Origin: an uncultured Oscillospiraceae bacterium
GTDB taxonomy: Bacteria; Bacillota; Clostridia; Oscillospirales; Oscillospiraceae
Length of the DNA stretch: 52,635 bases
Assembly: GCA_947628315.1 (NCBI GenBank)
Contig: CANQZJ010000008.1
Location: forward strand, 1 to 52,635
Reading direction: 5' to 3'
How positions within the stretch are numbered: the first letter of the stretch is position 1; the number at the start of each line of letters is the position of its first letter. The position numbers and the translations under genes are program-made. Below, in pieces: positions 8,806-34,228 of the stretch. The notes under the pieces were generated by a model, which searched no databases, was not told where the DNA came from, and worked only from the letters and a program-made list of their open reading frames with translations.

Positions 8806-8826
8806 ACGCGTTCACCTCAAAAGGCG

Positions 8827-8851
8827 GGCCGGGGGCAGGTCGCCCCCGGCC
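8827..8851 (-). other. Intercistronic stem-loop between uxaC and lplD
   Basis: A ten-base-pair GC stem (8827-8836 with 8842-8851) and a five-base loop sit in the 67-base gap. There is no T-run on the minus strand, so it looks like an mRNA-stabilising or processing hairpin rather than a terminator. Confidence 0.6.
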
Positions 8852-8872
8852 GGCTTGTCTGTCTCAAATGGC

Positions 8873-19842: not shown

Positions 19843-20922
19843 TTATTCGATGACATTTTCGGTCTCGCCGTCAAAGAGGTAGACCTCTTTCACGGGGATG
19901 GAGAACTTGATGCTGGTGTCGATCTCCGGCGTGTCGTGGGGATCGACCTTGAGGATGGCCTTGTCCTCGCCGGTGGTGATGTAGATGTTGGTGTTGTCGC
20001 CCAGCATCTCGGTGAGCTCCACCTGGGCGTCCACCACGTAGGCGTCGGCCTGCTCGCCCAGCTCGATGGCCTCGGGCCGGAAGCCGAAGACGATCTCCTT
20101 GCCCTCGTACTGGGCGGCCTTGGCGCCCAGCTTCTTGGTGATGTCCAGCTGGTTGGTGCCGAAGGTCAGCTTGCCGCCCTGCACCTTGCCCTTGACGAAG
20201 TTCATGGGCGGCTCGCCGATGAACCCGGCCACGAACACGTTGACGGGCTTGTAGTACAGGTCGTACGGGGTGCCGATCTGCTGGATATAGCCGTCCTTCA
20301 TGACCACGATCCGGTCGGCCAGAGTCATGGCCTCTGTCTGGTCGTGGGTCACGTAGATGGTGGTGGCGCCGGTGCTGTGGTGGATCTGGGCGATCTCAGA
20401 GCGCATGGTCACGCGCTGCTTGGCGTCCAGGTTGGACAGCGGCTCGTCCATCAGGAACACGCCCACCTTGCGGATGATGGCGCGGCCGATGGCCACACGC
20501 TGGCGCTGGCCGCCGGACAGAGCCCGGGGCAGACGATCCAGATAGTCCGTCAGGCCGAGGATGGCGGCGGTCTTCTTCACCTTCTCCTCGATGACGTCCT
20601 CGTCCACGCCCTGGAGGGTCAGGCCGAAGGCGATGTTGTCGAACACCGTCATCTGGGGATACAGGGCGTAGCTCTGGAAGACCATGGCCACTTCCCGCTC
20701 CCGGGGGCCCATCTCGTTGGCCCGCTTGCCGTTGATGAGGAATTCGCCGTTGGAGATGTCCTCCAGGCCCGCGATCATCCGCAGGGTGGTGGACTTTCCG
20801 CAGCCGGACGGCCCCACGAAGACGATGAACTCGCCCTTTTCGATCTCCAGATTGAAGTTGTGGACCGCGTGATAGCCGTTGGGATAGATCTTGTTGATGT
20901 CTTTCAGAGTTAAGTACGCCAT
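19843..20922 (-). CDS. ugpC: MsmX/UgpC-type sugar ABC transporter ATPase, stand-alone
   Basis: A 359-residue ATPase of the CUT1 carbohydrate importers. Walker A is GPSGCGKST (37-45), the signature LSGGQ (135-139) and Walker B VFLMDEP (155-161), followed by a C-terminal OB/TOBE regulatory part. The ATG at 20922 follows AAGGAGA. It leads the Kdu/Uxa operon, with no permease or binding-protein gene beside it. Such ATPases often energise several transporters at once, as MsmX does in Bacillus. The pectin transporter at 25-33 kb carries its own ATPase, so this one may be shared or redundant. Confidence 0.94.
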   Translation of the reverse strand: MAYLTLKDINKIYPNGYHAVHNFNLEIEKGEFIVFVGPSGCGKSTTLRMIAGLEDISNGEFLINGKRANEMGPREREVAMVFQSYALYPQMTVFDNIAFGLTLQGVDEDVIEEKVKKTAAILGLTDYLDRLPRALSGGQRQRVAIGRAIIRKVGVFLMDEPLSNLDAKQRVTMRSEIAQIHHSTGATTIYVTHDQTEAMTLADRIVVMKDGYIQQIGTPYDLYYKPVNVFVAGFIGEPPMNFVKGKVQGGKLTFGTNQLDITKKLGAKAAQYEGKEIVFGFRPEAIELGEQADAYVVDAQVELTEMLGDNTNIYITTGEDKAILKVDPHDTPEIDTSIKFSIPVKEVYLFDGETENVIE

Positions 20923-21056
20923 ATCTTCTGTCTCCTTACACATGATTTGATGGCCTTTACCAAGCTCGCGAGAACTTACTTTATTTACATTCCATATGGA
21001 CAAAACCGACAAAGTCTGATACAATAGCGGGTAACCGACAAGGGGGGCCCTGAAGC
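20923..21056. promoter_or_regulatory. Divergent regulatory region between the uronate operon and the AraC gene
   Basis: A 134-base gap drives both directions. It holds a perfect ten-base palindrome TCCATATGGA (20991-21000), the eight-base palindrome CTCGCGAG (20965-20972) and the decamer GACAAAACCG (20999-21008), which recurs in the regulatory region at 33129-33138. No good minus-strand sigma-A promoter is visible, which suits an activator-dependent operon. Confidence 0.6.
20997..21025 (+). promoter_or_regulatory. Sigma-A promoter of the AraC-type regulator
   Basis: TGGACA (20997-21002), 17-base spacer and TACAAT (21020-21025). The -35 box overlaps the palindrome TCCATATGGA and the shared decamer, so autoregulation is plausible. 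Confidence 0.68.
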
Positions 21057-21839
21057 ATGAACAGAATCGTATACGTGGGAAAACATACCTTGACGTTTTC
21101 CGTGTCCCGCCACATGCACACCACCTGGGAGCTGATCTACTGTACCGGCGGCAGCGGAACGCTGACCTTTGACGATCAGTCCACGCTGGAATACAGCGCC
21201 GGGGATGTGGCTGTCATTCCGCCGGGGCTGCCCCATTCCAACCGGAGCGCCAAGGGCTTTACCAACATCCACATCAATCTGGCGGACACCACCCTCGCCG
21301 ACGCGGAGCCCTTTCTCCTCCCCGCCGATCCAAACGGATTCTTGCTGAACGCCTTTCAGGCGGCGTTTTACTACTACTCCGGCGCCGACGCGGATGATGC
21401 CATGCTGCTGTCCATGTACGGGCAGCTGGTCGCCGCGTTCGCGTCCAGCCGCCAGCCCGGCAACCCCCGCAGCGAAGTGGTACATGAGATCAAGAACCAC
21501 ATCCTGCAGAACTACCCGGACTGCAACTACGACCTCAACGCCTACCTGCATACCCTTCCCTTCAACTCCGAGTATGTCAAGAAGCTGTTCAAGCGGGAGA
21601 CCGGCATGACGCCGCTGCAGTACCTCACCGACAAGCGGCTGGAGAACGGCGCCAACGCCCTGGCCATGTGCGCGGGCAAAGGGAATATCTCGGAGACCGC
21701 CCATCTGTGCGGCTTTTCCGAGCCGCTGTACTTCTCCCGGCTGTTCAAGAAGAAGTACGGCGTCTCCCCCCGTCAGTACCGGCCGGAGCGCCCCGAGCCG
21801 ATGACCGACTCGGACTGGATGAAGGTCATTCCGCTGTGA
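21057..21839 (+). CDS. AraC-family transcriptional regulator
   Basis: A 260-residue regulator with an N-terminal cupin sensor (about 10-110; HMHTTWELIYC and YSAGDVAVIPPGLPHS are characteristic) and a C-terminal AraC pair of helix-turn-helix motifs (about 155-255; LNAYLHTLPFNSEYVKKLFK, then ISETAHLCGFSEPLYFSRLF and KKYGVSPRQYR). The ligand is probably a uronate or a pectin breakdown intermediate, given its place between the Kdu/Uxa operon and the pectin depolymerase genes. Its 3' end overlaps the convergent GH105 gene by 14 bases. It is the only regulator gene seen between 7 and 34 kb. Confidence 0.93.
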   Translation: MNRIVYVGKHTLTFSVSRHMHTTWELIYCTGGSGTLTFDDQSTLEYSAGDVAVIPPGLPHSNRSAKGFTNIHINLADTTLADAEPFLLPADPNGFLLNAFQAAFYYYSGADADDAMLLSMYGQLVAAFASSRQPGNPRSEVVHEIKNHILQNYPDCNYDLNAYLHTLPFNSEYVKKLFKRETGMTPLQYLTDKRLENGANALAMCAGKGNISETAHLCGFSEPLYFSRLFKKKYGVSPRQYRPERPEPMTDSDWMKVIPL

Positions 21840-22962
21840 GGCGTTTGACCTCGGTGTAGGCCAGCACAAAGGGCGCCACGCCCTTGGCGTCGTTGGCCAC
21901 TACCGGCTCGGAGATGTAGTATTCATAGGAGCCGTCCCGCCGGCGGTTGTTCTCCGGGCCCAGGCCCGCCACCAGGCAGATACCCTCCAGGTCGATACCG
22001 TCGTCGGTAAAGGTCAAATACTTCTCCACGATGCCGTCAAAGGTCTTCTGGCCTTTGGCGGCATAGCTTTTGTCCAGGATGCCCAGCCGTGCGCCCTTCA
22101 GCATGGCGTAGGCCATCATGGCGCTGCCGCTGGTCTCCAGGTAGTTGCCCTCCCGGCCGCCCTGATCGGGCACCTGCCAGTAGAGGCCGGTGGCCGGGTC
22201 GGCGTATTTGCCGACGGAGGCCATCAGGTCGGCGAAGATCTCCGCCAGGCCCTCCCGGTACGGATCGTCCGCCGGGATGATCTCCGTCAGGTCGGCCAGC
22301 GCCACGGCGAACCAGCCCAGGGAGCGCAGCCAGAAGTTTTTGGAGCAGCCAGTCTCTTTGTCCGCCCAGAAGGCGGTCTTGGAGGCGTCATACCCGTGGT
22401 AGTAGAGCCCGGTCTTAAGGTCGAACATCCTGGCCCGGACGTTGCCGATCTGCTTTGCCACGTCGGTGTAGTCGCCCTTCCCCAGGTGGCGCTGATAGAG
22501 CGCCCGGAAGGGCTGGGCCATGTAGATGCCGTCCAGCCACACCTGGTTGGGGTAGATCTCCTTGTGCCAGAAGTTCCCCTCATGGGTGCGGGGCTGGCGC
22601 TCCAGCTGATTCTGGAGAAATTCGGCCGCCCTGCGGTATTTCTCCTTGCCGGTGCGCTCATAGAGCTCAAAGAGCGCCCGGCCCTCGTTGATATCGTCCA
22701 GATTGTACTTTTCCGGCTGGAAGGTGCGGATGGAGCCGTCCTCCTCCACAAAGTGGTCGATCACCTGCTCGGCGAAATCAAAGTACCGCTGGTCGCCCGT
22801 GATGCGGGCCATCTCCAGCAGGGCGGTGATCATGCAGCCGTCGATGTAGTTCCAGGAGGCGGGCTTGCCCTCCCGGATCTTTTCCATATTCCACGCGGTG
22901 CGCTCCGGGGTGGACTCCTCCACCAGGCGGAGCACATAGGCGTCGATTTTTTGATAGTCCAT
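21826..22962 (-). CDS. GH105 unsaturated rhamnogalacturonyl/galacturonyl hydrolase
   Basis: A 378-residue (alpha/alpha)6-barrel enzyme of the YteR/YesR family. It hydrates the double bond of the 4,5-unsaturated galacturonate left by pectin lyases and so releases 5-keto-4-deoxyuronate. The catalytic aspartate of the family is in VWLDGIYMAQPF (Asp144), and a second conserved aspartate in LDDINEGR (Asp89 or Asp90). No signal peptide, so it works on imported oligosaccharides. Its product is the KduI substrate. The start overlaps the GH28 stop by one base. The choice between rhamnogalacturonan and homogalacturonan fragments cannot be made from sequence. Confidence 0.92.
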   Translation of the reverse strand: MDYQKIDAYVLRLVEESTPERTAWNMEKIREGKPASWNYIDGCMITALLEMARITGDQRYFDFAEQVIDHFVEEDGSIRTFQPEKYNLDDINEGRALFELYERTGKEKYRRAAEFLQNQLERQPRTHEGNFWHKEIYPNQVWLDGIYMAQPFRALYQRHLGKGDYTDVAKQIGNVRARMFDLKTGLYYHGYDASKTAFWADKETGCSKNFWLRSLGWFAVALADLTEIIPADDPYREGLAEIFADLMASVGKYADPATGLYWQVPDQGGREGNYLETSGSAMMAYAMLKGARLGILDKSYAAKGQKTFDGIVEKYLTFTDDGIDLEGICLVAGLGPENNRRRDGSYEYYISEPVVANDAKGVAPFVLAYTEVKRLTAE

Positions 22963-24527
22963 CAGTCCACCTCGAATCCGTCCGTGGTAACGTCCTCACA
23001 GTGCTGGACGATGAGTCCCTCGCCGTCCACGCCCTTGAGGGTCACATTTTTCACCTGGATCTTGGTCACGTTGTCGAGATACAGGCCCAGGCGGCACCGC
23101 TTCTCGGCAAAGTTCTGCATGGCGGGAGTGCCCGGCTGGGCATCCTCCGCGAAGGATATGCTGATGTCTTCAAAGCTCACCTCGTCGATGGGGCTCTCGG
23201 GCAGGCCGTCGATATAGCAGGCGGCCACCTCCGCTCCGGTACACTCCATGTTGCGGAAGGCGAAGGAACCCAGGTGGGGCGTCCTGTCGTCCACCGGCAG
23301 GTGCTCCCGGCTCCATACATACTCGGTGTACCGATCCGGGTCGCAGCAGTTGTACCACATGTTGATGACGATAGGGGTGAGCACCGCGTCCATGAGAATG
23401 TTGTCAAACAGCACGTTGGTGACGATGCTGTCCTTTCCGCGGCCCCGGCGGGACTTGATGCGCAGGCCCCGGTCGGTGGCATGGAACACGCACTGGGTCA
23501 CGCTCAGGTTGCGGATGCCCGCCGCCAGCTCGCTGCCCAGGGTCACGGCCCCGTGGCCAAATTCCATCAGACAGTTGCGGATGGTGTGGTGGTCGGCGGG
23601 GACGCAGTACTTTCGGGCCATTTCGATCTTGCCGGACTTGATGGCGATGCAGTCGTCCCCCACGGAGAACCGGCAGCCGATAATGTCCACCCCGTCACAG
23701 CTCTCCGGGTCGATGCCGTCGGTGTTGGGGCTCACTTTGGGCGCGGTGATGAAGATGTCCAAAATGGACACATTCTGAGAGTAATAGGGGTGGATATGCC
23801 AGGAGGCGCCGTTCTGCACCGTCACGCCGTGAAGGGTAACATCCTTGCAGCGGTTCAGGAAGATGGCGCGGGGCCGGGCGGCGGGGAACTCCTTGAAGTT
23901 CTTCCACCAGTCGCCATTCTGGGCGTTGCCGTCGATGACGCCCTTGCCCACAATGGCCACATCCTCGGCGTAGGAGCCGTGGATCAGAGACTGATAGCAG
24001 TCGTCCTCCAGCCCCTCAAAGCTCACCATGGGCAGCTCCTTGCCGTCGGGCGCCACACACACCGTTTTCAGAATGGGATAGCGCTCCCGCTCCGTGGAGC
24101 CCAGCAGGGACGCGCCCTCCTGCAACTCCAGGGTGATGTGGCTCTTCAGGGACAGGGGCAGGGTGAGATAGGTTCCCGCCGGGAAGACCACGCGGCCTCC
24201 CTCGGGGATCAGGTTGATGGCGGCCTGAAGCGCGGCGGTGTCCTCGTGGACGCCGTCGCCCACGGCGCCGAAGTCCTTGACGCTGACCCGGCAGGTCTCG
24301 GCACGGGTGTGGATCGTCACAGCGTCCTCCCCGCCGGAGCGGAAACGGACGGTGACGGCATACCCGGTGTCCGGCTCCAGGTCGAACAGGGAGAACACGT
24401 TGGTCTCCCCCTGGAGCCGCTCCTCGCCGTTCAGCAGGACGGTATAGGGTTCCTGCGCGTAGTAGGGCCTGGTGCCCTCCAGCTCAAAACAGGCGGAACT
24501 GTTTCCGCAGTACAGGATGTTGATCAT
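22962..24527 (-). CDS. GH28 polygalacturonase, cytosolic, predicted exo-acting
   Basis: A 521-residue enzyme. Residues 1 to about 76 form a fibronectin-III-like module (ends with DTGYAVTVRF), and the parallel beta helix begins at VKDFGAVGDG. All GH28 catalytic motifs are present: NTDG (Asp270), DD in GDDC (Asp291, Asp292), GHG (324-326) and RIK (356-358). An N-terminal FN3-like module joined to GH28 is known from exo-polygalacturonases such as that of Yersinia. No signal peptide is visible, so oligogalacturonides must be imported first. It sits in the transporter operon between a 4-TM protein gene and GH105. Confidence 0.93.
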   Translation of the reverse strand: MINILYCGNSSACFELEGTRPYYAQEPYTVLLNGEERLQGETNVFSLFDLEPDTGYAVTVRFRSGGEDAVTIHTRAETCRVSVKDFGAVGDGVHEDTAALQAAINLIPEGGRVVFPAGTYLTLPLSLKSHITLELQEGASLLGSTERERYPILKTVCVAPDGKELPMVSFEGLEDDCYQSLIHGSYAEDVAIVGKGVIDGNAQNGDWWKNFKEFPAARPRAIFLNRCKDVTLHGVTVQNGASWHIHPYYSQNVSILDIFITAPKVSPNTDGIDPESCDGVDIIGCRFSVGDDCIAIKSGKIEMARKYCVPADHHTIRNCLMEFGHGAVTLGSELAAGIRNLSVTQCVFHATDRGLRIKSRRGRGKDSIVTNVLFDNILMDAVLTPIVINMWYNCCDPDRYTEYVWSREHLPVDDRTPHLGSFAFRNMECTGAEVAACYIDGLPESPIDEVSFEDISISFAEDAQPGTPAMQNFAEKRCRLGLYLDNVTKIQVKNVTLKGVDGEGLIVQHCEDVTTDGFEVD

Positions 24528-24537
24528 GGCTTTGACC

Positions 24538-25179
24538 TCACTGGACAGACTTTTTTGCCCCGCCGCGCACCAGATCCACGATCCAGTGCTTGATTTGGAT
24601 CAGCAGCAGATCCACACCCAGGCAGAACACGCCGAACAGAACCGGCTCCACCCCCAGGGGGACGCTGCCGGCGGGCGCTTTCGTGATGGCCACAAGGGCC
24701 GTGTTGATACCGGTGTAGATCAAAATGACCAGAAACAGTACCACATAGGAGTAGATGATGTTCAGCGGGAAGCTGATGTAGCCCGTCTGGGGGCACATCA
24801 TCCAGCGGTCGTTGCCGCCCTTGGTCTTGGCGATGAACCGCAGCACATTGTTGGTGAGCAGATCGGTGACGATCCCCAGCGCCATGCCGGTGACGAAGAG
24901 GGCGTCCAGCGTGTCCGCCAGATAGCCCCCCAGCCCCCACAGGAAGAAGAAACACACCGCCCCGGCGAACCAGCCCTTGATAAAGCACAGCTTCACCCAG
25001 TCGGCCACCTGCAGCTTCGGGCCGGACTTGTACTTCCGCAGCTCCGCCTGGGAGACCTCCGGCGAGTTGGACTCATCGGCGGTGACCAGGTCGCGCACCG
25101 CATCGGTTTTCAGCTGGTAATAGTCCGACTCTTTTTCGATCTCAGGCTTTTCCGGCTGGTTTCGTTTGCGTTTGCTCAT
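24538..25179 (-). CDS. Four-TM membrane protein E of the pectin transporter operon, unknown family
   Basis: A 213-residue protein with a charged, cytosolic-looking N-terminus (about 1-60, rich in Lys and Glu) and four hydrophobic segments (about 63-87, 91-115, 133-160 and 177-202). I recognise no family and see no catalytic motif. It follows the 4-TM gene at 25255 and precedes GH28, inside the operon that runs from 32938 to 21826. One of four distinct 4-TM proteins around the ABC ATPase; an accessory role in uptake is inferred from context. Confidence 0.8.
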   Translation of the reverse strand: MSKRKRNQPEKPEIEKESDYYQLKTDAVRDLVTADESNSPEVSQAELRKYKSGPKLQVADWVKLCFIKGWFAGAVCFFFLWGLGGYLADTLDALFVTGMALGIVTDLLTNNVLRFIAKTKGGNDRWMMCPQTGYISFPLNIIYSYVVLFLVILIYTGINTALVAITKAPAGSVPLGVEPVLFGVFCLGVDLLLIQIKHWIVDLVRGGAKKSVQ

Positions 25180-25198
25180 GTGGAACTCCTATCCCGGA

Positions 25199-25222
25199 GC
25201 GGGAGCTCTTGCGAGCCCCCGC
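25199..25222 (-). other. Intercistronic stem-loop
   Basis: A ten-base stem with one wobble pair (25199-25208 with 25213-25222) and a TTGC-type loop lies between two 4-TM genes. No T-run follows on the minus strand, so it is more likely an mRNA-processing or stability element than a terminator. Confidence 0.55.
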
Positions 25223-25254
25223 CCTGTCAGGCCAGTGGGGCGTATCCGATGGGG

Positions 25255-25824
25255 TCAGTCGTTGGACAGGTCGATGGCGCCCATTTCGCCGTTGCCCTCC
25301 ACCTCGATGGAGGTCTTGATCTTCCGCAGCAGCTTGGAATACACAGGCAGCAGGATCACCAGCACGACGCCGATGCCCAGAATGACCATGTGACCGCGCA
25401 GCATATTATAGGCCTTGGCGATATAGGCGGTCTGGCTGGTGATCTCGATGCGGTTCTCCGCCCGGGTCACCGCGTTCAGGATCATGCGGCTGTAATACGC
25501 ATCGCAGCCGATGATGATGGCGAACATGATGAACATCAGCACCAGCATGACCTTATTCACCGGCTTACGATAGGGGAATGCGTTGATGAAGCACATAAAG
25601 GACAGCATGGAGAACAGCATGGTGCAGAAACCGGTGAAGCCCATGCCGGGGCCCTGGATACGGGCGGTAGTGTCCGAAATGTACATCAGGTTCAGGGAGT
25701 AGTAGAGGAACGCCACTACGACGACCACCAGGGCGATCATCTGGGGACGGCGCTTCAGGGCGACCATAAATTTACGGCAGGCCTCTTTCAGCACTCCGCC
25801 GACCGTCTTTTTATTTTCCTTCAT
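25255..25824 (-). CDS. Four-TM membrane protein D of the pectin transporter operon, unknown family
   Basis: A 189-residue protein with a basic N-terminus, four hydrophobic segments (about 29-49, 61-82, 90-112 and 140-165) and a short acidic tail. The ATG at 25824 is chosen over the GTG one codon upstream: AGGGGGGAC precedes it, and it overlaps the ATPase stop by one base (TGATG). No family recognised. The tight coupling to the ATPase gene argues that its product is made in step with the transporter. Confidence 0.82.
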   Translation of the reverse strand: MKENKKTVGGVLKEACRKFMVALKRRPQMIALVVVVVAFLYYSLNLMYISDTTARIQGPGMGFTGFCTMLFSMLSFMCFINAFPYRKPVNKVMLVLMFIMFAIIIGCDAYYSRMILNAVTRAENRIEITSQTAYIAKAYNMLRGHMVILGIGVVLVILLPVYSKLLRKIKTSIEVEGNGEMGAIDLSND

Positions 25825-26897
25825 CACTTGTCCCCCCTGATCGCTTTGGTAGTCTCCTTATCGAAGAAGTGCTTGCGCTTGAAGGAGAAGGAGGCGCCGT
25901 CGCCGTTCTTGTAGTCGGCCCAGCCCTTGAGCTTGGCGACGATCCGGTTGCCGGTGCCGGCGATGTGGCCGTGAACCAGGGTGTTCATGCCCAGGTTCTC
26001 GTTGTTGGTCACGTCCACCTTCACGTCGGTGCCCTCCGCGATGTTCTCGGGCCGGACGCCCAGGACGACCACCTTGCCGTTGTAGGCCTGCAGGATGTGC
26101 TGCTCCTCGGGGGTGAGCCCCACGGTAAAGCCCTCGCCCACCAGCTTGTCGCCGTCAACACGAACGTCGAAGAAGTTCATGGGAGGCAGGCCGATGAAGC
26201 TGGCCACGAAGATGTTGTCCGGGGAATCATACAACTCCAGGGGAGTGCCCACCTGCTGCACGTGGCCCATGGACATACACACGATGCGGTCAGCCAGGGT
26301 CAGAGCTTCGGTCTGGTCGTGGGTAACGTACATCATGGTGGCCTGCAGCCGCTTGTGGAGCAGCAGGATCTCACGCCGGGTGGCGCCGCGGAGCTTGGCG
26401 TCCAGGTTGGACAGGGGCTCGTCGAACAGGAACACCTTGGGGTTCCGCACGATGGAGCGGCCCATGGCCACGCGCTGGCGCTGGCCGCCGGACAGCTGCG
26501 CCGGCTTCTTGTTCAGCTGGCTGGTCAGGCCCAGGATCTCGGCCGCCGCCAGCACTTTCTTGTGGATAACGTTGGGATTCTCCTTACGCAGGGTCAGGGA
26601 GAACGCCATGTTCTCGTAAATGGTCATGTGGCCGTACAGAGCGTAGCTCTGGAACACCATGGCCATATCACGATCCTTGGCGGGGGCGGCGGTGATGTCC
26701 TTGCCGTCCAGCAGGAGCTTGCCGGCGGAGATGTCCTCCAGGCCGGCCACCATGCGGAGGGTGGTGGACTTACCGCAGCCGGAGGGGCCCACCAGTACGA
26801 TGAGCTCGCCGTCCTTTACGTCCAGGTTGAAGTCGAAGACCGCCTGAACATTGTTGTCGTATATCTTGTCGATATGCTGAATACTCAGTTCTGCCAT
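25824..26897 (-). CDS. ugpC: MsmX/UgpC-type sugar ABC transporter ATPase of the pectin transporter
   Basis: A 357-residue CUT1 ATPase. Walker A GPSGCGKST (37-45), signature LSGGQ (135-139), Walker B VFLFDEP, and a C-terminal TOBE part are all intact. AAAGGAGG precedes the ATG at 26897. It is encoded between two pairs of 4-TM proteins, in the same operon as the binding protein and two permeases, and so probably energises that importer. It differs from the ATPase at 19.8 kb over much of its length, so this is not a recent duplication. Confidence 0.94.
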   Translation of the reverse strand: MAELSIQHIDKIYDNNVQAVFDFNLDVKDGELIVLVGPSGCGKSTTLRMVAGLEDISAGKLLLDGKDITAAPAKDRDMAMVFQSYALYGHMTIYENMAFSLTLRKENPNVIHKKVLAAAEILGLTSQLNKKPAQLSGGQRQRVAMGRSIVRNPKVFLFDEPLSNLDAKLRGATRREILLLHKRLQATMMYVTHDQTEALTLADRIVCMSMGHVQQVGTPLELYDSPDNIFVASFIGLPPMNFFDVRVDGDKLVGEGFTVGLTPEEQHILQAYNGKVVVLGVRPENIAEGTDVKVDVTNNENLGMNTLVHGHIAGTGNRIVAKLKGWADYKNGDGASFSFKRKHFFDKETTKAIRGDK

Positions 26898-26910
26898 GTC
26901 TTCGCCTCCT

Positions 26911-27405
26911 TTACGCGTTCTGGGCGTCCAGGGTCTTCATGTGGGCCGCCAGCTCCCTGCACTTGGTGAAGTTGATCACCGCGGACAGAATCAGGCAGAC
27001 CGCGGAGGCCACCAGGCAGACCACATGGAACATGAACTGGCCGTTGCCCATCACGGTGGTCTCCACGCCGTTGACCAGGGTCTCGGCGGCATGGGCGGGA
27101 ACCGGGATGATGAAGATCCGGACGATCTGGATCACGCCGATCACTGCCAGCAGATAGGAGTAGCCGGGCTTGTAGTTCTTGACCCCCTCGGAGGCCAGGA
27201 ACACCGCCAGCATGAAGATCAGGTTGTAGACGATGGACACGCCGATCACGATGGTGTAATAGTAGTTGCCCACGTCGGACATATACAGCCTGACAAAATT
27301 GAACACATTAAAGAGAATGCCGAGGTAGCACAGGCTGGAGGACTGGGTGTTCTTGATGAATCTCATCCGGTCGCGCCGGACGGTACGTTCGTCGTTCAGA
27401 TTCAC
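26911..27405 (-). CDS. Four-TM membrane protein C of the pectin transporter operon, unknown family
   Basis: A 164-residue protein with four hydrophobic segments (about 23-42, 49-71, 81-99 and 123-144) and short charged ends. No known family or motif. The start overlaps the upstream gene stop by four bases (ATGA) and the ATPase gene follows 13 bases later. With its neighbours it forms a set of small membrane proteins placed inside an otherwise standard sugar importer operon. Confidence 0.82.
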   Translation of the reverse strand: MNLNDERTVRRDRMRFIKNTQSSSLCYLGILFNVFNFVRLYMSDVGNYYYTIVIGVSIVYNLIFMLAVFLASEGVKNYKPGYSYLLAVIGVIQIVRIFIIPVPAHAAETLVNGVETTVMGNGQFMFHVVCLVASAVCLILSAVINFTKCRELAAHMKTLDAQNA

Positions 27406-27992
27406 GCCGCAGCCTCCTTTCCTTTCTCAATGAGCTTGGCCTCCTGCTTCATCAGGCTGATCTTCCACACCGCGTTGGCAACGAGCAGCACGGCCACCAG
27501 CAGCAGCAGGCCGAATACGGCGTAATGGATATCGAACCAGAAGGTGGATTTGGTGTACAGGGTGCCCCACATATCCGCGTGTTCTTTCAGGGCGTCGAAG
27601 TCCACCTCAAGCCATCTGGCCCGGAAGTACTCGATGTAGGTATGGCAGGTCACGGACAGATATACGCTGAAGCCCGCAAACGCGGCGATGGCAACATAGT
27701 TGCCGATGTAGTACTTTCTGCGAATATGGGTGTTGGTAACGAACAGGAACGCGGCCAGCAGGATCAGCACGATACTGTAAATCAGGAAGAACTGATTGAA
27801 CGGCTGCATGTTGTAGTAGATGATAGAGCCGGGCACGTCCGTCTTGGTGTAATCGTTGGAGTTGCGCATGGTGCTGTACAGACTATCATACAGGTCGGTC
27901 ATGATGCCGAGCGAATAGAGGAAAACCACCGCGCTCATGATGATAGCCGACAGGCAAAGGATCTTCTGCGCGATCAACTGTTTTTTGTACAT
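27402..27992 (-). CDS. Four-TM membrane protein B of the pectin transporter operon, unknown family
   Basis: A 196-residue protein with four hydrophobic segments (about 11-32, 68-86, 94-116 and 153-173), two hydrophilic loops with many Tyr and Asp residues (33-65 and 117-150), and a basic C-terminus. By the positive-inside rule the loops would face outward. The ATG at 27992 is supported by GAGGAGG; the open frame upstream is a GC-rich artefact. No family recognised. It follows the binding-protein gene after a strong hairpin. Confidence 0.82.
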   Translation of the reverse strand: MYKKQLIAQKILCLSAIIMSAVVFLYSLGIMTDLYDSLYSTMRNSNDYTKTDVPGSIIYYNMQPFNQFFLIYSIVLILLAAFLFVTNTHIRRKYYIGNYVAIAAFAGFSVYLSVTCHTYIEYFRARWLEVDFDALKEHADMWGTLYTKSTFWFDIHYAVFGLLLLVAVLLVANAVWKISLMKQEAKLIEKGKEAAA

Positions 27993-28025
27993 GACGACCT
28001 CCTCGCAGGGAACCTGCCCGCCCGG

Positions 28026-28050
28026 CCCGGGGAGCGGACCGCTCCCCGGG
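28026..28050 (-). other. Strong intercistronic hairpin after the binding-protein gene
   Basis: Twelve-base arms (28026-28037 and 28039-28050) form a perfect GC-rich inverted repeat with a one-base centre. No T-run follows. Such hairpins after binding-protein genes commonly protect the upstream mRNA and raise binding-protein levels above those of downstream genes. Confidence 0.66.
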
Positions 28051-28130
28051 CACGGGCCGGCTTTTCTCCGGTCTTGGTGGCGGCGCGGCGAAAGCCGCCC
28101 CGCGGGTAATGCCAATGCGGTGTGTTTCGA

Positions 28131-30311
28131 TTACTTAATGGTCTCGTAATAGGCCTGAGCGTTCTCCCAGGCGCTCTCCTTCAGAGCCAGGTACTGCTTG
28201 CCGCTCCAGGTGCTGGCCACGTAGTCAGCAGAGGACTGAGCGTCCTTCATGTTGGCGTCGGTGTAGCCGCTGACGATCTGGTCGACCAGGATGTTGACCT
28301 CGTCCTTGGAGCTGGAGAACTGGGTGGACAGCTCAGCATAGCTGTTGATCAGGGCGTTGTCCTCCTTGGTGGTGGGCAGCACGGTGGGCACGGAGGTGTA
28401 CCAGCTGTTGTCAGCCACGGCCAGTTCGGGGTGCTTGATGGTGCCCAGGGCGATGGCCTTGGAGATGTAGCCGGCGCCCTCACGGCCGACCTCGGAGGTG
28501 CACTCATACTCGAAGGACTGGCTCTTCACGAAGGACAGGGTGGAGCCCAGGTAGTTACGGGCATAGTTGGTGTAGTTGCCGCCGGCCTTCTCCCACAGCT
28601 CAGCATAGGTGGCGTCGGAAATCTCGGGCCACTGCTCGCCGTTAAAGTCGAAGGTCACATAGCTGCCGTCGGAATTGGTCTTGATGAAGTCGTCGGGGCC
28701 ATAGCTCATCATGACCATGCCCTCGGGGGAGTAAGCGTAGTCGATCAGGGCCAGGCAGGCGTTCAGCTTGTCGGTGTCGCTGCCCACGCCCTCCTTGGAG
28801 ATGGCCCAGCCGTCAGTCTTGACGGAGCGCCAGGACTCGGTGAAGCGCATGAACTGCTCGCCGGTGCCGTCATCCCAACGGGCCACGGGCACCATAACGG
28901 CCATGTACTTCTCGCCGGCGGCGGTATCCAGGGTCTTGCCATCCTCGTTGTACAGGGTCTGGGTCTGGTTGTAGTCATAGTGCATGAAGCCCAGGTCGTT
29001 CTCCAGATAGGTCTGGGTCTTCTCAGCGGACATATCAACGAAAGCCTTGGAGATCAGGCCCTCGGAGACCAGGTCGTGCATACGCTCCAGAGCCTCATAG
29101 GTAGCGGCCTCCTGGCGGGCGTCATGCAGAACGCCGTCGTTGCCGACGTACAGGTAATCCTGGCGGGACTCCAGGCCGCGGACGCCGAACAGGGTGCCGG
29201 CGAAGCGGAACATATCAACGCGGCGCTGGTTGTTGTCGTCCTCACGGGAGAACAGGCCCTGGATGGAGTCGGTGCCGTTCAGAGTCTGGGGGTTGGCGAC
29301 CACGCAGCGGAGCAGGGCCACCAGCTCGTCGGCGTCCCAGGCAGCGTTCTGGCCGATGAACAGGTCAGCGCGGTTGGTGCCATAGTAGCCGTTGTAAGCG
29401 GTGTCGATGTAGGTGCGGAGCATGTTGACGGCGTCCACGCCGCTCATGCTGCCGGCCTCGTTCATCTTGGCGACGATGTTGCCGGCGGCGTCATAGTCCT
29501 TGGTGACCTTCTCGGTGCCGGAGCCGTCAGCCTTGACCACGTCCACCTCCACCTTGCCGGTGGTGGGCATATAGGGCTCATAGACGGGGGCGGCGGTGTT
29601 GTTGCTGGCGTCGGCGGTGAACTCACCCTCGCCGTTCAGCAGCTTCGCGACCCAGTCAACACGCATCAGAGGCATACGCTCGATGTCGTTGACACCGTCG
29701 AAGTAGGGGCTGAAGTAGATGGCGCCGGTGGAGGTGTCGCCAACGATGGACAGCATGACGATGGGGTTGGCCTCCAGATAGGCCTTGAAGTTGGGCATCT
29801 GATCGAGATAGTCGGCGATGTTGACCAGGGAGCCGGCAACGCCGTTCTCATTCAGCTTGGCAGCGGTGCCGGACACCATGTCGACCTGGCCCAGCTGCTC
29901 TTTCCAGTAGTCGAACTCCTTGGAAGCGGAGTTGCCCTGGTACTTGTTCTCGAAGGTGACCTTCAGGACGTCCTGAATGGCGGCCCAGGTGGGCTTCAGC
30001 TCGCCGGCGTGATAGGTCTTGCCGTCGGCCAGAGTCACGCCTTCGCCGGCGGTCTCGGCGTCGAAGGTGATGCCGGTCTTCTCATTGTTGTAGCCGCAGG
30101 CCAGGCGGATCACGGTACCGTCCGCATAGGTCAGGGTGGCGGCGGGCTGATCGCCGCCCTCAGGGGCCTGGGTAGCTTCGCTGCCCGAAGCCGTGGGAGC
30201 CTGAGTGGCGGGGGGGTTGGTGGGAGCTTCCAGGCTGGGGCCGCAGCCGGCCATCAGCGCGAAGCTCATGGCGAGCACGAGCAGAATCGCGATGAGTTTT
30301 TGCTTTTTCAT
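28131..30311 (-). CDS. Large sugar-binding lipoprotein of the pectin oligosaccharide ABC transporter
   Basis: A 726-residue extracellular solute-binding protein. A type II signal peptide ends in LMAGC with the lipidated Cys23, followed by a Pro/Thr/Ala-rich linker (about 24-58). The body shows a family 1 type binding-protein pattern (for example YWKEQLGQVDMVSG, LVNIADYLDQMPNFKAYLEANP, GWAISKEG and ACLALIDYAYSPEG). It is considerably longer than the LplA-type proteins of about 500 residues, suggesting an enlarged site for long oligosaccharides. It is encoded directly after its two permeases. The pectic substrate is inferred from the operon. Confidence 0.9.
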   Translation of the reverse strand: MKKQKLIAILLVLAMSFALMAGCGPSLEAPTNPPATQAPTASGSEATQAPEGGDQPAATLTYADGTVIRLACGYNNEKTGITFDAETAGEGVTLADGKTYHAGELKPTWAAIQDVLKVTFENKYQGNSASKEFDYWKEQLGQVDMVSGTAAKLNENGVAGSLVNIADYLDQMPNFKAYLEANPIVMLSIVGDTSTGAIYFSPYFDGVNDIERMPLMRVDWVAKLLNGEGEFTADASNNTAAPVYEPYMPTTGKVEVDVVKADGSGTEKVTKDYDAAGNIVAKMNEAGSMSGVDAVNMLRTYIDTAYNGYYGTNRADLFIGQNAAWDADELVALLRCVVANPQTLNGTDSIQGLFSREDDNNQRRVDMFRFAGTLFGVRGLESRQDYLYVGNDGVLHDARQEAATYEALERMHDLVSEGLISKAFVDMSAEKTQTYLENDLGFMHYDYNQTQTLYNEDGKTLDTAAGEKYMAVMVPVARWDDGTGEQFMRFTESWRSVKTDGWAISKEGVGSDTDKLNACLALIDYAYSPEGMVMMSYGPDDFIKTNSDGSYVTFDFNGEQWPEISDATYAELWEKAGGNYTNYARNYLGSTLSFVKSQSFEYECTSEVGREGAGYISKAIALGTIKHPELAVADNSWYTSVPTVLPTTKEDNALINSYAELSTQFSSSKDEVNILVDQIVSGYTDANMKDAQSSADYVASTWSGKQYLALKESAWENAQAYYETIK

Positions 30312-30385
30312 GGGATATCCTCCTAGATTTTAATATTTTCCGGGCGTCGCCCGGTGGGGTAATAAAGTCAGCTGAACGGTGTGGA

Positions 30386-31276
30386 TCATTCCTTCACGCC
30401 GCCCACGTTGGTGCCCTTGGCAAAGTACTTCTGAATGAAGGGGTAGATCACCAGGATGGGCACGATGGAGCAGACGATCAGGGCGTAGATCACAGAGTCG
30501 GACGCATAGGGGTAGTTCCAGCCGGTCATCCGATCCGGGTCGGTGAACTCCTCCAGCCGCAGACGGATGAACACCTGCAGGGGGTGCTCATTCTGGTTGG
30601 AGATCATCTGCCGCGCCCAGAAGTATCCGTTCCAGCGGCTGATGGCGAAGAACAACGCCACCGTCGCGATGGTGGATTTACTCATGGGGATGAACACGTT
30701 GGTCAGCACCTGCATCTCGGTGGCGCCGTCCACGATGGCGGCCTCCTCCACCTCGGAGGGGACGCCTTCAAAGGCGTTTCTCAGCAGGATGATGTTCATG
30801 GCCGCCATGCCCATGGCGATGACGACCAGCCACTTGTCGTCCATGATGCCCACGGCGTTGAACACCTTCTGGGTAGCCAGGTAGTTCAGGTACTGGGGCA
30901 CGATGCCGGCGGCGAACCACATGGTGAACACCAGGAAGAAGTTGAACGCCTTGCGGAACAGCAGCCGGGGCTTGGACAGGGCGTAGGCGCCCAGAATGGC
31001 GGTGAACATGGCCCACAGAGTGCCGTACAGGGTGATGAACAGGGTGTTGGAGTAGGCATTCCAGAACATGTTGTCCCCGAACATCCGGGCGAAGGCCTCG
31101 AACTGAACGTCGATGGGGAGCAGCACCACCCGGCCGTATTCCACGGCGGAGCGTCCGCTGATGGCGGAGGCCACGGCGTACACGAAGGGGTACAGGCAGG
31201 CCAGCGCGAAGATGGTCAGCAGGGTGTAGCTGAGGATCTTAAAGATCAGCTCGGAGATCTCAAGTTTTCTTTTCAT
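30386..31276 (-). CDS. LplC/YtcP-type ABC permease
   Basis: A 296-residue integral membrane permease of the CUT1 family with about six segments. The cytoplasmic EAA loop that docks with the ATPase is EAAIVDGATEMQVLTNVFIP (from residue 178). AGGAGG precedes the ATG. It pairs with the permease encoded 12 bases upstream. Homologues LplC and YtcP import pectin-derived rhamnogalacturonan or galacturonate oligomers in Bacillus. Confidence 0.93.
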   Translation of the reverse strand: MKRKLEISELIFKILSYTLLTIFALACLYPFVYAVASAISGRSAVEYGRVVLLPIDVQFEAFARMFGDNMFWNAYSNTLFITLYGTLWAMFTAILGAYALSKPRLLFRKAFNFFLVFTMWFAAGIVPQYLNYLATQKVFNAVGIMDDKWLVVIAMGMAAMNIILLRNAFEGVPSEVEEAAIVDGATEMQVLTNVFIPMSKSTIATVALFFAISRWNGYFWARQMISNQNEHPLQVFIRLRLEEFTDPDRMTGWNYPYASDSVIYALIVCSIVPILVIYPFIQKYFAKGTNVGGVKE

Positions 31277-31288
31277 GGCGACCTCCTG

Positions 31289-32353
31289 TTAGTACAGCGA
31301 CGTGTTGGACGCCTTCCGGGCAATGGTGTTGGCGCCGATGACCAGCAGCATGCCGACCACGTTGTTCATCATCTCGGCCGCGGCGGCAAGTCCCGGCTGT
31401 GCGGCGCCCGCGGCGCTGCCCATGCCGTACCGGTTGGCGAAGGTGGAGACCACGTCGGCAGTGACGTAGGTATTGGTGTTGTACAGCAGCAATACCTTCT
31501 CATAGCCGATGTTCAGCAGGGAGCCGATCCGGGTGATCAGCATGATCACGATGGTGGACAGGATGCTGGGGAGCACCACGTACCGCATCTGGGCCCACTT
31601 GTCGGCGCCGTCGATCTGGGCGGCCTCGTAGCTGGTGGGGGACACGGCGATGATGGCCGCGAAGAACACGATGCTGTCGTAGCCGGCGGTCTCCCAGATG
31701 CCGCTGATCTGATAGATGGAGCGGAAGAACGCGGGGTTGTTCAGCAGGCCGGCGTTCGCCACGTCGTGACTGATCAGTCCCAGTCCTTCCAACGCCTGGT
31801 TCACAATGCCCATACCGGTGGTCAGAGAGCCCTGCTTGACCAACATGGTCACCAGAGAGGTCATAACGACGGTGGACATGAACTTGGGCAGATAGGTCAG
31901 CACCTGGTAGACGCTCCGGGCGGCGTCAGACTTGATCTCATTGAAGAACAACGCCAGTATGATGGGGATGGGGAAGCCGAAGCAGAGGCCATAGAAGCTG
32001 AGGATGAAGGTGTTCCGCATGGCCCGCCAGAATTCTGTGGAGACGGTGTCTCCGCCCAGCAGCAGCCGCTTGAAATACGAGAAGCCGGAAAACAGCTGCT
32101 CGGACACGGGCAGAACGTTGTCTGACACCTTAAAGCACCCCAACAGCTCATACATGGGGAAGTAGCGCCAGAACAGGAACACCAGCAGCATGGGCACCAG
32201 CATGAGATACAGCCGCCAGTCCTTTGCGATGGTACGGCCAACATGGAGCCAATAGTGCTTTTCCACATCATCTCGAACAGCCTGTTCCGGACTAATTCGA
32301 TAAGCGCCCCGGTCTTTATCGAATTCGAGGAAATCCGCTGCCCTTTCTTTCAT
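31289..32353 (-). CDS. LplB/YteP-type ABC permease
   Basis: A 354-residue permease with six membrane segments and a hydrophilic N-terminus of about 45 residues that is longer than usual. The EAA loop is EAAQIDGADKWAQMRYVVLP (from residue 243). AAAGGAGG precedes the ATG. LplB and YteP relatives are partners of LplC/YtcP-type permeases in pectin oligosaccharide import, which agrees with GH28, GH105 and pectinesterase genes nearby. Confidence 0.93.
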   Translation of the reverse strand: MKERAADFLEFDKDRGAYRISPEQAVRDDVEKHYWLHVGRTIAKDWRLYLMLVPMLLVFLFWRYFPMYELLGCFKVSDNVLPVSEQLFSGFSYFKRLLLGGDTVSTEFWRAMRNTFILSFYGLCFGFPIPIILALFFNEIKSDAARSVYQVLTYLPKFMSTVVMTSLVTMLVKQGSLTTGMGIVNQALEGLGLISHDVANAGLLNNPAFFRSIYQISGIWETAGYDSIVFFAAIIAVSPTSYEAAQIDGADKWAQMRYVVLPSILSTIVIMLITRIGSLLNIGYEKVLLLYNTNTYVTADVVSTFANRYGMGSAAGAAQPGLAAAAEMMNNVVGMLLVIGANTIARKASNTSLY

Positions 32354-32368
32354 AGTTTACCTCCTTTT

Positions 32369-32938
32369 TTACCCCTCCTCCTCATGGATCCGGAGGAGGT
32401 AATGTTTTTGATCTTCATAGACACCGTCCAGCTTTCGCGCTATCCAGATGATCACAAAAGTAAAGATGTAGGAGAGGCTGTCCATGGTGAAAAAGTCCAC
32501 CATGCCCACCGGCTTGACGGCGCCGCAGATCAGCGCCACCACCGCCCGTCCTACGTGCATGAGCAGCTGCACCAGCAGCGGGAACACCAGCGACAGGTTG
32601 CTCCCCGTGCGCACCTTCTCCTTCCCCAGCTTCAGCAGCAGGGGCACCGCCAGAAGGGAGAACAGATTGCCCACACAATAAATAATGTACTGCTCTCCGG
32701 TTCCGCCGGAGAACACGCAGAAAATCAAACCGGCCTCCGCCGCGTGGATGGCACCCCACCAGCCCCAGCGCATATAGACGATGGAGGTGAGCGCCGCCGC
32801 CAGGGACACGGTATACAGCTGGTCGGGGAACCAGAAGCGCGCCGCGGCAATGATCAGGTACTCAAATACCGCCAGCATCACCGCCATGAGCGCCAGGTCG
32901 ATGGCGCGGTATTGCTGCCAGGTGCGCTGTCTCTTCAT
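32369..32938 (-). CDS. Six-TM protein A, S-component-like, first gene of the pectin transporter operon
   Basis: A 189-residue protein with about six hydrophobic segments (13-33, 38-55, 57-77, 82-103, 113-137 and 148-168). The first segment (RAIDLALMAVMLAVFEYL) and the compact six-segment size resemble the substrate-binding S components of ECF transporters, but this is a weak resemblance and no ECF ATPases are nearby. The ATG at 32938 is preceded by GGAGAGGA; the frame is open further upstream into the promoter region. The gene is transcribed first, ahead of the two permeases. Confidence 0.76.
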   Translation of the reverse strand: MKRQRTWQQYRAIDLALMAVMLAVFEYLIIAAARFWFPDQLYTVSLAAALTSIVYMRWGWWGAIHAAEAGLIFCVFSGGTGEQYIIYCVGNLFSLLAVPLLLKLGKEKVRTGSNLSLVFPLLVQLLMHVGRAVVALICGAVKPVGMVDFFTMDSLSYIFTFVIIWIARKLDGVYEDQKHYLLRIHEEEG

Positions 32939-33240
32939 CGCGTTCCTCTCCGTCCCGCCGAACCGCTGAAATCCGGCCAAAACGGAGGTCTGGCCGCACC
33001 CAACCTGCGGGGCAGCCTGGCCTCCTGATGTATGCCACAAAAAAGTCTTCCCTGTTTTGTGCAATATCACTATCAAAATCGATTCTATGATGGGTTTATT
33101 ATACATGATGACATTTTTCATGTATATAGACAAAACCGCTACATTTATGCACAAAACAGATTTTTTGCCAATTTTGAATGTTCCGGCCGCTTTGCCGGTT
33201 TATAATGGTGCCACCACAGAAAAAACAGGGAGGTTTTTCT
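32939..33240. promoter_or_regulatory. Divergent regulatory region between the pectin transporter operon and pectinesterase
   Basis: A 302-base AT-rich gap without a gene. It contains a perfect 12-base inverted repeat whose arms (33052-33063 and 33148-33159, reading TGCACAAAACAG on one strand) flank the minus-strand promoter. A smaller palindrome TACATGA/TCATGTA (33102-33108 and 33118-33124) lies across the promoter itself. The decamer GACAAAACCG (33129-33138) is shared with the AraC-gene region. A plus-strand TATAAT (33201-33206) lies 34 bases before pectinesterase but has no good -35 box, as expected for an activated promoter. The stretch nearest the operon start (32939-33030) shows nothing I can name. 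Confidence 0.68.
33098..33126 (-). promoter_or_regulatory. Sigma-A promoter of the pectin transporter operon
   Basis: On the minus strand, TATACA (33126-33121), a 17-base spacer and TATAAT (33103-33098). It predicts a leader of about 150 bases before the gene at 32938. Confidence 0.66.
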
Positions 33241-34098
33241 ATGATTTCCGTCCAGCCGCACGACGATCTGCAGACGATTTTCGACCGCGCCGCCCCCGGC
33301 GAGGTCATCCGGCTCGCCCCCGGTGAATACCGGGTCAAATCCGTCATCTTCACCGACGGTCTCACCCTGGTGGGCGCGGGAGCGGACGCCACCCGCATCG
33401 TCTGGGACGACTACGCACAGAAGATCCACGCGGACGGCAAGGAGTACAACACCTTCCGCACCTGGACGCTGGCGGTGTGCGCCGACAATGTGACCATGCG
33501 GGATCTGGCCGTGGTGAACGACGCCCTCCACCCGGAGACCAAGGGCCAGGAGGTGGCCCTCACCGTCTACGGCGACAACTTCGCCATGGAGCACTGCCGG
33601 CTCACCTCCACCCAGGACACCCTGTTCCTGGGCCCCCTGCCCAGGGACCTGATCGAGCGGTATGACGGCTTCCTCCCCGATCATCTCCGCCGGGACAAGG
33701 CCTGCCGCCAGCGGTTCACCGACTGTCTCATCGAGGGCACGGTGGATTTCATCTTCGGCTGCGGCGAGGCGCTCTTCGAGGACTGCGAGATCCGCTCCCT
33801 CTACGACGTGCGGGGCCACGGCTACGCCGCCGCCCCCGCCCACGCCCTGGAGCAGACCGAGGGCTTCCGGTTCCAAAACTGCCGCTTCACCGCCGAGGGC
33901 ACCGTGGCGGACGGCTCCATCTACCTGGCGCGGCCATGGCGGGACTACGGCCTGTGCGTGTTCGAGAACTGCGCCTACGGCCCCCACATCTCCCCCCTGG
34001 GCTTCGACAAGTGGAACGACACGGAGCGGGACAAGACCGCCCGGTTCTACGAGTCCCCCAGCCGCCCCGGACGGGTGCCCTGGGCGCGCTCCTTTTGA
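33241..34098 (+). CDS. CE8 pectinesterase, cytosolic
   Basis: A 285-residue pectin methylesterase of the right-handed beta-helix type. Catalytic residues are visible: Asp126 in STQDTLF, Asp169 in GTVDFIFG and Arg231 in LARPWRDYG. It removes methyl esters from galacturonate residues, freeing methanol. There is no signal peptide, so it should act on imported methylated oligosaccharides before GH28 and GH4. GGAGG lies before the ATG at 33241; the longer open frame upstream covers the promoter. It is transcribed divergently from the transporter operon. Length is close to the minimal catalytic domain. Confidence 0.93.
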   Translation: MISVQPHDDLQTIFDRAAPGEVIRLAPGEYRVKSVIFTDGLTLVGAGADATRIVWDDYAQKIHADGKEYNTFRTWTLAVCADNVTMRDLAVVNDALHPETKGQEVALTVYGDNFAMEHCRLTSTQDTLFLGPLPRDLIERYDGFLPDHLRRDKACRQRFTDCLIEGTVDFIFGCGEALFEDCEIRSLYDVRGHGYAAAPAHALEQTEGFRFQNCRFTAEGTVADGSIYLARPWRDYGLCVFENCAYGPHISPLGFDKWNDTERDKTARFYESPSRPGRVPWARSF

Positions 34099-34174: not shown

Positions 34175-34228
34175 GTAGTGTGTAATTGTTTCAACTACTA
34201 CCTATATTGTTTGATCGAGAGGCAAATC

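Follow-up and report, generated by a model that had tools for sequence, protein, structure and literature searches.

Small membrane proteins encoded with a putative uronate-oligosaccharide ABC importer of gut Clostridia are candidate accessory subunits

Sugar importers of the ATP-binding cassette (ABC) type are taken to be four-part machines. We analyzed a stretch of 52,635 nucleotides from an uncultured Oscillospiraceae bacterium (contig CANQZJ010000008.1; the whole stretch is referred to as the window), in which a minus-strand operon of nine genes, here named A to I, encodes two permeases (B and C), a binding protein (D), and an ATPase (G) interleaved with five small membrane proteins (A, E, F, H, and I). 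On balance, we lean toward the view that E, F, H, and I, joined by A in the pectin type of the cassette, serve as accessory subunits in a single clade of importers for uronate oligosaccharides. We infer that the five associate physically with the permease–ATPase core, which they would brace and on which they would retain the ATPase.

All nine open reading frames (ORFs) lie on the minus strand in the arrangement given by the original prediction, with a protein of six transmembrane (TM) helices, two permeases, a binding protein, an ATPase, and four 4-TM proteins; the start codons of A (32938) and E (27992) were picked by eye and by comparison with relatives. The permeases B (31289..32353, LplB type) and C (30386..31276, LplC type) both match PF00528 (BPD_transp_1) above the cut-off and are the two permeases of a Type I, CUT1-like importer, with UgpA/MalF-like and UgpE/MalG-like matches, respectively, below the cut-off. 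D (28131..30311) is a 726-residue solute-binding lipoprotein with the lipobox LMAGC, a pattern found in 52 of 56 D orthologues longer than 700 residues. It has no Pfam match; its family profile matches AlgQ1 (E = 8e-24), and AlgQ1 and AlgQ2 are its closest relatives by sequence in the PDB. G (25824..26897), an importer ATPase of the UgpC/MalK type encoded within the operon, carries PF00005 (ABC_tran) and OB_MalK above the cut-off and scores 428.7 bits against the UgpC model, for which the cut-off is 432.

The remaining five genes encode A (32369..32938; 189 residues, six helices) and the 4-TM proteins E (27402..27992; 196 residues), F (26911..27405; 164 residues), H (25255..25824; 189 residues), and I (24538..25179; 213 residues, of which the N-terminal ~60 are predicted to be cytosolic). 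The nonsynonymous and synonymous divergences (dN/dS), each from a single comparison of the window with one relative, are 0.089/0.423 for E, 0.107/0.381 for F, 0.097/0.409 for H, 0.063/0.402 for I, and 0.145/0.666 for A; because dN amounts to 0.16–0.28 of dS, all five are protein-coding genes under purifying selection, which rules out chance ORFs. None of them matches a Pfam or NCBIfam family above the curated cut-offs, a PHROGs search gave nothing at E ≤ 0.01, and A has no Pfam or NCBIfam family even at E ≤ 1. The best match below the cut-offs, E to DUF2569 (E = 0.003), was dropped for its score, and those of relatives to DUF6057, DUF7937, YfhO, and others were set aside. Sequence searches of the PDB with E, F, H, and I returned nothing or weak matches at E 0.25 or worse; PDB sequence matches to EMC4 (E 0.012), APOBEC3H, a chemokine receptor, and SinI are weak and partial and were judged to be chance. 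Literature searches in the open-licence subset of PubMed Central brought up no title or abstract that describes any of the five. That they all differ, as had been proposed, agrees with an hhalign probability of at most 5.2 in all ten pairs, and they are mutually unrelated by this measure. The further proposal that they belong to no known family stands at the level of sequence, where none of them reaches a family cut-off or clearly matches an unrelated known family, and gives way for A at the level of fold, where a predicted S-component fold emerges (see below).

The five genes co-occur with those of the importer. A profile of H, searched against 84,980 species represented by one genome apiece, found 228 relatives, and the 80 most similar to H were analyzed; H is present in all 80 loci by construction, the other genes were free to vary, and presence was counted only at loci whose contig extends past a fixed distance. 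The order A–I is monotone in 80/80 loci and no gene is missing where there is room (A 51/51, B 54/54, C 55/55, D 60/60, E 70/70, F 72/72, G 74/74, and I 77/77), so that the set does occur together beside LplB/LplC permeases, the co-occurrence that the original prediction had called for, and it does so strongly in these loci. The full nine-gene set is visible in 55 of the 80 loci, with contig ends cutting the remainder. The adjoining enzyme genes are less constant, GH28 (glycoside hydrolase family 28) being missing in 10/69 and GH105 in 2/69 loci with room. Median identity to the window is ~86% for B, C, and G, 70% for D, and 58–67% for A, E, F, H, and I. The relatives carry the submitters' labels Oscillospiraceae, Lachnospiraceae, Ruminococcaceae, Erysipelotrichaceae, and others, and many come from herbivore guts.

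Smaller draws of genomes were searched as well. The H profile gave seven matches in 120 family genomes, six of them strong; G and I adjoin H in all six, and the five other than the window show the complete A–I order. Among 197 genomes of the order, strong matches to D, H, and I (six each) and to E, F, and A (five each) are all confined to the same six genomes, in one of which, G479, A would fall past the contig end and F is cut. Profiles of E and A run against 299 genomes in the phylum draws gave a high-confidence match only in the window's genome, and therefore the set is narrow. In the family of genome G527 (discussed below), the A profile matched 1 of 18 genomes, namely G527 itself, and neither viral contigs searched with the I profile nor plasmids searched with the H profile gave a match. 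No confident homologue was found away from importer genes. Weaker matches were set apart. Those of the A profile to G444, G478, and G504 in the order draw (1e-4 to 1e-5) cover residues 44–104 only, lie within frames of 642–743 residues, and were judged unrelated; in the two inspected, G478 and G444, a similar small gene adjoins the match, and G444 has genes that presumably encode V-type ATPase subunits, a reading made without a family search. Phylum matches of the A profile to G136 and G387 (0.001–0.005) are partial. Matches of the H profile to G491 and G494 (order draw; 0.004–0.01), which contain internal stops, and to a 506-residue frame of G034 (family draw; 8.7e-4) were judged to be chance.

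The arrangement of the genes points to coupled synthesis. In the window, the GTG start of F overlaps the stop of E at 27402-27405 and the ATG start of H overlaps the stop of the ATPase gene G at 25824; both overlaps, noted in the original prediction, are real. Counted over loci where both genes are visible, E and F overlap in 66/72 (median -4), A and B in 40/56, and G and H in 37/80, with a median spacing of 1 base. The D–E and H–I gaps are longer (medians of 116 and 70 bases) and both fold strongly: in 40 relatives, with block shuffling, the mean z is -3.75 for D–E and -4.28 for H–I, with z < -2 in 95% and 97.5%, respectively, and in the window, with dinucleotide shuffling, the D–E hairpin (27993..28130, minus strand) has z = -3.39 and the H–I hairpin (25180..25254, minus strand) z = -2.01. 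Neither hairpin has a U tract, no terminator-like site is listed in either gap, the folding of the C–D gap is not unusual in the window or its relatives, and an Rfam scan of 21000-34000 found no match. A promoter-like site 5' of A (33098..33126, minus strand; TATACA-17-TATAAT) is a consensus match only, at 10/12 positions, and is one of five such sites in the region, where 3.8 are expected by chance. Because of the overlaps, the spacing, and the two hairpins, the coupled units are A–B, E–F–G–H, and I with the enzymes; judging from spacing, the ATPase G would share one translational unit with the three 4-TM proteins E, F, and H, and the hairpins perhaps split the operon into units of different mRNA stability. 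Co-occurrence and frequent coupling, to a permease through A–B and to the ATPase through E–F–G–H, thus uphold the proposal that the five belong with the importer.

An importer of a second type carries relatives of the same proteins. An LplB search in six genomes gave 36 matches, six of them the cassette's own; from the remaining 30, the 14 best matches were examined. At one, locus L180 of genome G077, B (7810-8835; 49% identity over the aligned part) and C (8851-9714) are followed in cassette order by D, E2, F2, the ATPase, H2, and I2, with no A recognized at this cassette; this diverged importer, with the layout B-C-D-E-F-G-H-I, was noted at L180 7810-14966 and L194 1956-5870. Compared by hhalign, the L180 proteins pair with their counterparts in the window (I2–I, E = 3e-12; E2–E, 3e-5; F2–F, 2e-5), whereas mismatched pairs are all ≥ 0.03, and hmmsearch among 52 background TM ORFs finds I2 at 3.8e-14, E2 at 3.4e-5, and F2 at 2e-4. 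An IclR regulator lies upstream of the L180 cassette, DUF4962 and heparinase/alginate-lyase-like genes lie downstream, and this type of importer likely serves another uronate polymer. With E, F, and I having relatives beside uronate-lyase-like genes, the 'long pectic oligosaccharides' of the original prediction are too narrow a substrate for these three.

The other 13 LplB operons have no A, E, F, H, or I match at 1e-3, and the small TM ORFs that they carry on the same strand within 7.5 kb of LplB number between none and two; some of these we take to resemble DUF624/YesL. A tree of 29 LplB proteins includes long branches; in it, the 16 counted as bearers of the small proteins lie on one side of a branch with 100/100 support and the 13 plain paralogues on the other. 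For two of the 16 the evidence is partial: G479, where contigs are cut, and G527, where H and I are on a separate contig and no E or F was found. The G527 cassette extends over two contigs, as G-A-B-C and H-I-GH28-D, so that the order differs and the partners are the same; its ATPase gene (L139 2570-3679), 56% identical to G, lies immediately upstream of A, an arrangement that the pectin cassettes do not share. The notion that the long N-terminus of I tethers GH28 is weakened, because I of both G527 and L180 is without it, though the G527 I adjoins GH28.

A restriction to one LplB clade also bears on the foremost alternative, which we regard as unlikely: that the small proteins are transient assembly or stability factors that fold, insert, or protect the permeases or the ATPase and stay outside the working importer. 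The linkage and coupling evidence would suit such factors equally well, as would helical bundles of small size that match no known family, but four to five different factors for each importer would be many, and the six genomes searched for LplB also encode 13 plain paralogues that manage without them.

Structure prediction adds a fold for A. AlphaFold2 modelled A with a pLDDT of 94.1, and the best Foldseek match of the model is 3p5n (probability 0.98, TM-scores 0.56/0.61), which we take to be RibU, followed by 4hzu_S (probability 0.92, query TM-score 0.58), with TmRibU and a biotin S component among further matches. The E-values are weak (0.32 for 3p5n and 1.2 for 4hzu_S; no match at E ≤ 0.001). 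A is thus predicted to have the six-helix fold of the S components of energy-coupling factor (ECF) transporters, a statement on fold and not on descent. The parts seen of the account by Partipilo and Slotboom (PMC11109136) describe this fold as common to transporters and receptors, MreD and sensor kinases among its users, and a helix-1 AXXXA motif as accompanying true ECF transport. That motif, which binds EcfT, is not conserved in A: alanine occupies positions 19 and 23 in 10/32 sequences, both positions hold small residues in 20/32, and any AxxxA within residues 7–36 occurs in 14/32. CbiQ/EcfT is encoded elsewhere in 8/8 genomes tested, and none was recognized within the operon. H was modelled as a four-helix bundle (pLDDT 84.9, with the last 14 residues at low confidence), for which the structure matches are weak and comprise many unrelated bundles, e.g., an IgE-receptor chain and claudin-15.

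The fold of A opens a further alternative, to which we give somewhat less credence than to assembly factors, namely that A, whose predicted fold is also that of 5TMR histidine kinase membrane domains, forms with the 4-TM proteins a sensor module or transceptor that senses uronates and tunes the importer. The predicted S-component fold of A, the sharing of that fold by transporters and receptors in the source just cited, and the location of A's most conserved segment at its cytosolic C-terminus (0.81) are consistent with this; yet Pfam recognizes no signalling domain on A, E, F, H, or I, and relatives of E, F, and I are present at L180, where no A was recognized. Least probable of all is that the five are hitchhikers with unrelated jobs that are merely co-transcribed, A being for example an ordinary vitamin S component for which EcfT/CbiQ elsewhere in the 8/8 genomes would supply the motor. 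Against this, GH28 is lost at 10/69 loci and A–I at none with room, a second, diverged importer has relatives of E, F, and I, the G527 cassette again contains A-B-C and H-I although its order is different, and the AXXXA motif is not conserved in A.

Several observations weigh against the accessory-subunit reading itself. Operon linkage alone can reflect co-regulation, and members more distant than the best 80 of the 228 might lack parts. G527, the most distant member seen, has A, H, and I, with no E or F found anywhere in the genome, although contig ends break up its cassette, and H2 of L180 is equated with H by position alone (hhalign E = 0.13). A second conserved importer-type ATPase is encoded nearby (19843..21024, minus strand, with a likely start near 20922); it is 49% identical to G, is kept in relatives (median 82%), and may be a shared ATPase, so that it may serve the importer instead of G or alongside it. 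Five unrelated families do not suggest a symmetric belt around the core. Finally, pooled loop conservation values are 0.69 for cytosolic and 0.66 for outer loops (p = 0.08), and the cytosolic excess is significant only in H (p = 0.014) and I (p = 0.001) and not in A, E, or F; conservation on the cytosolic side is thus not upheld as a general rule. The original prediction suggested a complex for capture, gating, or anchoring; with outer loops no more conserved than cytosolic ones, nothing in particular points to substrate capture on the outside.

The surroundings of the operon suggest its substrate. Downstream of I follow J (22962..24527, minus strand; PF00295), a GH28 polygalacturonase, and K (21826..22962, minus strand; PF07470), an unsaturated uronyl hydrolase of GH88/GH105 type; neither J nor the pectinesterase of the region has a signal peptide by eye. 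Further context proteins are two PfkB kinases, KDPG aldolase, altronate dehydratase, a reductase of mannitol-dehydrogenase type, a short-chain dehydrogenase/reductase, KduI, UxaC, a GH4 enzyme, and an AraC regulator. Together, these genes are those of a galacturonate pathway. AlgQ1 and AlgQ2 bind alginate, and the closeness of D to both by sequence, taken with the pathway around it, makes oligogalacturonides the most likely substrate. Proteins with a D-like domain are also encoded in frames of 1087 and 1181 residues (57% and ~40% identity) at L115 3226-6489 and L116 2513-6058; no permease genes were recognized on these stretches, and the large proteins are perhaps surface binding proteins. On the plus strand of the window, 34178-35641 encodes a protein in which an L,D-transpeptidase domain, a Big_2 domain, and three SLH repeats are joined.

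If E, F, H, I, and A are accessory subunits, the importer would be a type I (CUT1-like) ABC transporter to which the pectin branch adds A, a subunit of predicted S-component fold. The AlgQ-like lipoprotein D would capture oligogalacturonides and hand them over to LplB/LplC, and the dedicated ATPase G would power transport. A would be synthesized in coupling with LplB, and E-F-G-H as one translational unit; because of this coupling, the small bundles probably come together around the permease–ATPase core while it is being synthesized. There, they could brace the core, hold the dedicated ATPase in place of a shared ATPase of MsmX type, and support the passage of a long polyanionic substrate, which GH28 and GH105 would then cut in the cytosol.

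Whether this amounts to a new importer architecture is a more tentative matter. Such an architecture would comprise two permeases and four unrelated 4-TM subunits, plus the S-fold subunit in the pectin type, for the uronate-oligosaccharide class in gut Clostridia and with its own locked-in ATPase; we think it possible, though somewhat short of even chances. It might, with similar reserve, add ~22 TM helices to the ~12 expected for two permeases. If true, it would change the understanding of how long charged oligosaccharides are taken up in gut Firmicutes, might explain why this importer clade has its own ATPase, and would place an S-component-fold protein in a non-ECF sugar importer operon, which was not found described in the open-licence subset of PubMed Central. 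In addition, five unnamed families gain a testable function.

Among known systems, the pectin importers of B. subtilis are one of the closest. YtcQP-YteP and YesOPQ likewise consist of two permeases and a binding protein each and handle polygalacturonan or rhamnogalacturonan; compared by description, they differ in that the ATPase, MsmX, is shared between importers and that no accessory membrane proteins are mentioned in the parts seen of the source (PMC5730181). The S components of ECF transporters (riboflavin, biotin, and folate types) resemble A in predicted fold; A differs in that no EcfT/EcfA was recognized in its operon, AXXXA is not conserved, and it has no Pfam match. MreD and the membrane domains of 5TMR histidine kinases likewise have the S fold without an ECF motor, as far as the excerpted source describes them (PMC11109136). 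A departs from both in having no Pfam match at E ≤ 1 and in adjoining an ABC permease. Small membrane proteins near some plain LplB/LplC operons are presumably DUF624/YesL-like, whereas none of A, E, F, H, or I matches DUF624 in Pfam. Finally, the Sphingomonas importer AlgM1M2SS-AlgQ2 handles fragments of a uronate polymer and resembles our system in its binding protein, in that AlgQ1 and AlgQ2 are nearest to D by sequence in the PDB. To our knowledge, that importer was solved without extra membrane subunits, and its AlgQ chains have 490–516 residues, compared to 726 in D.

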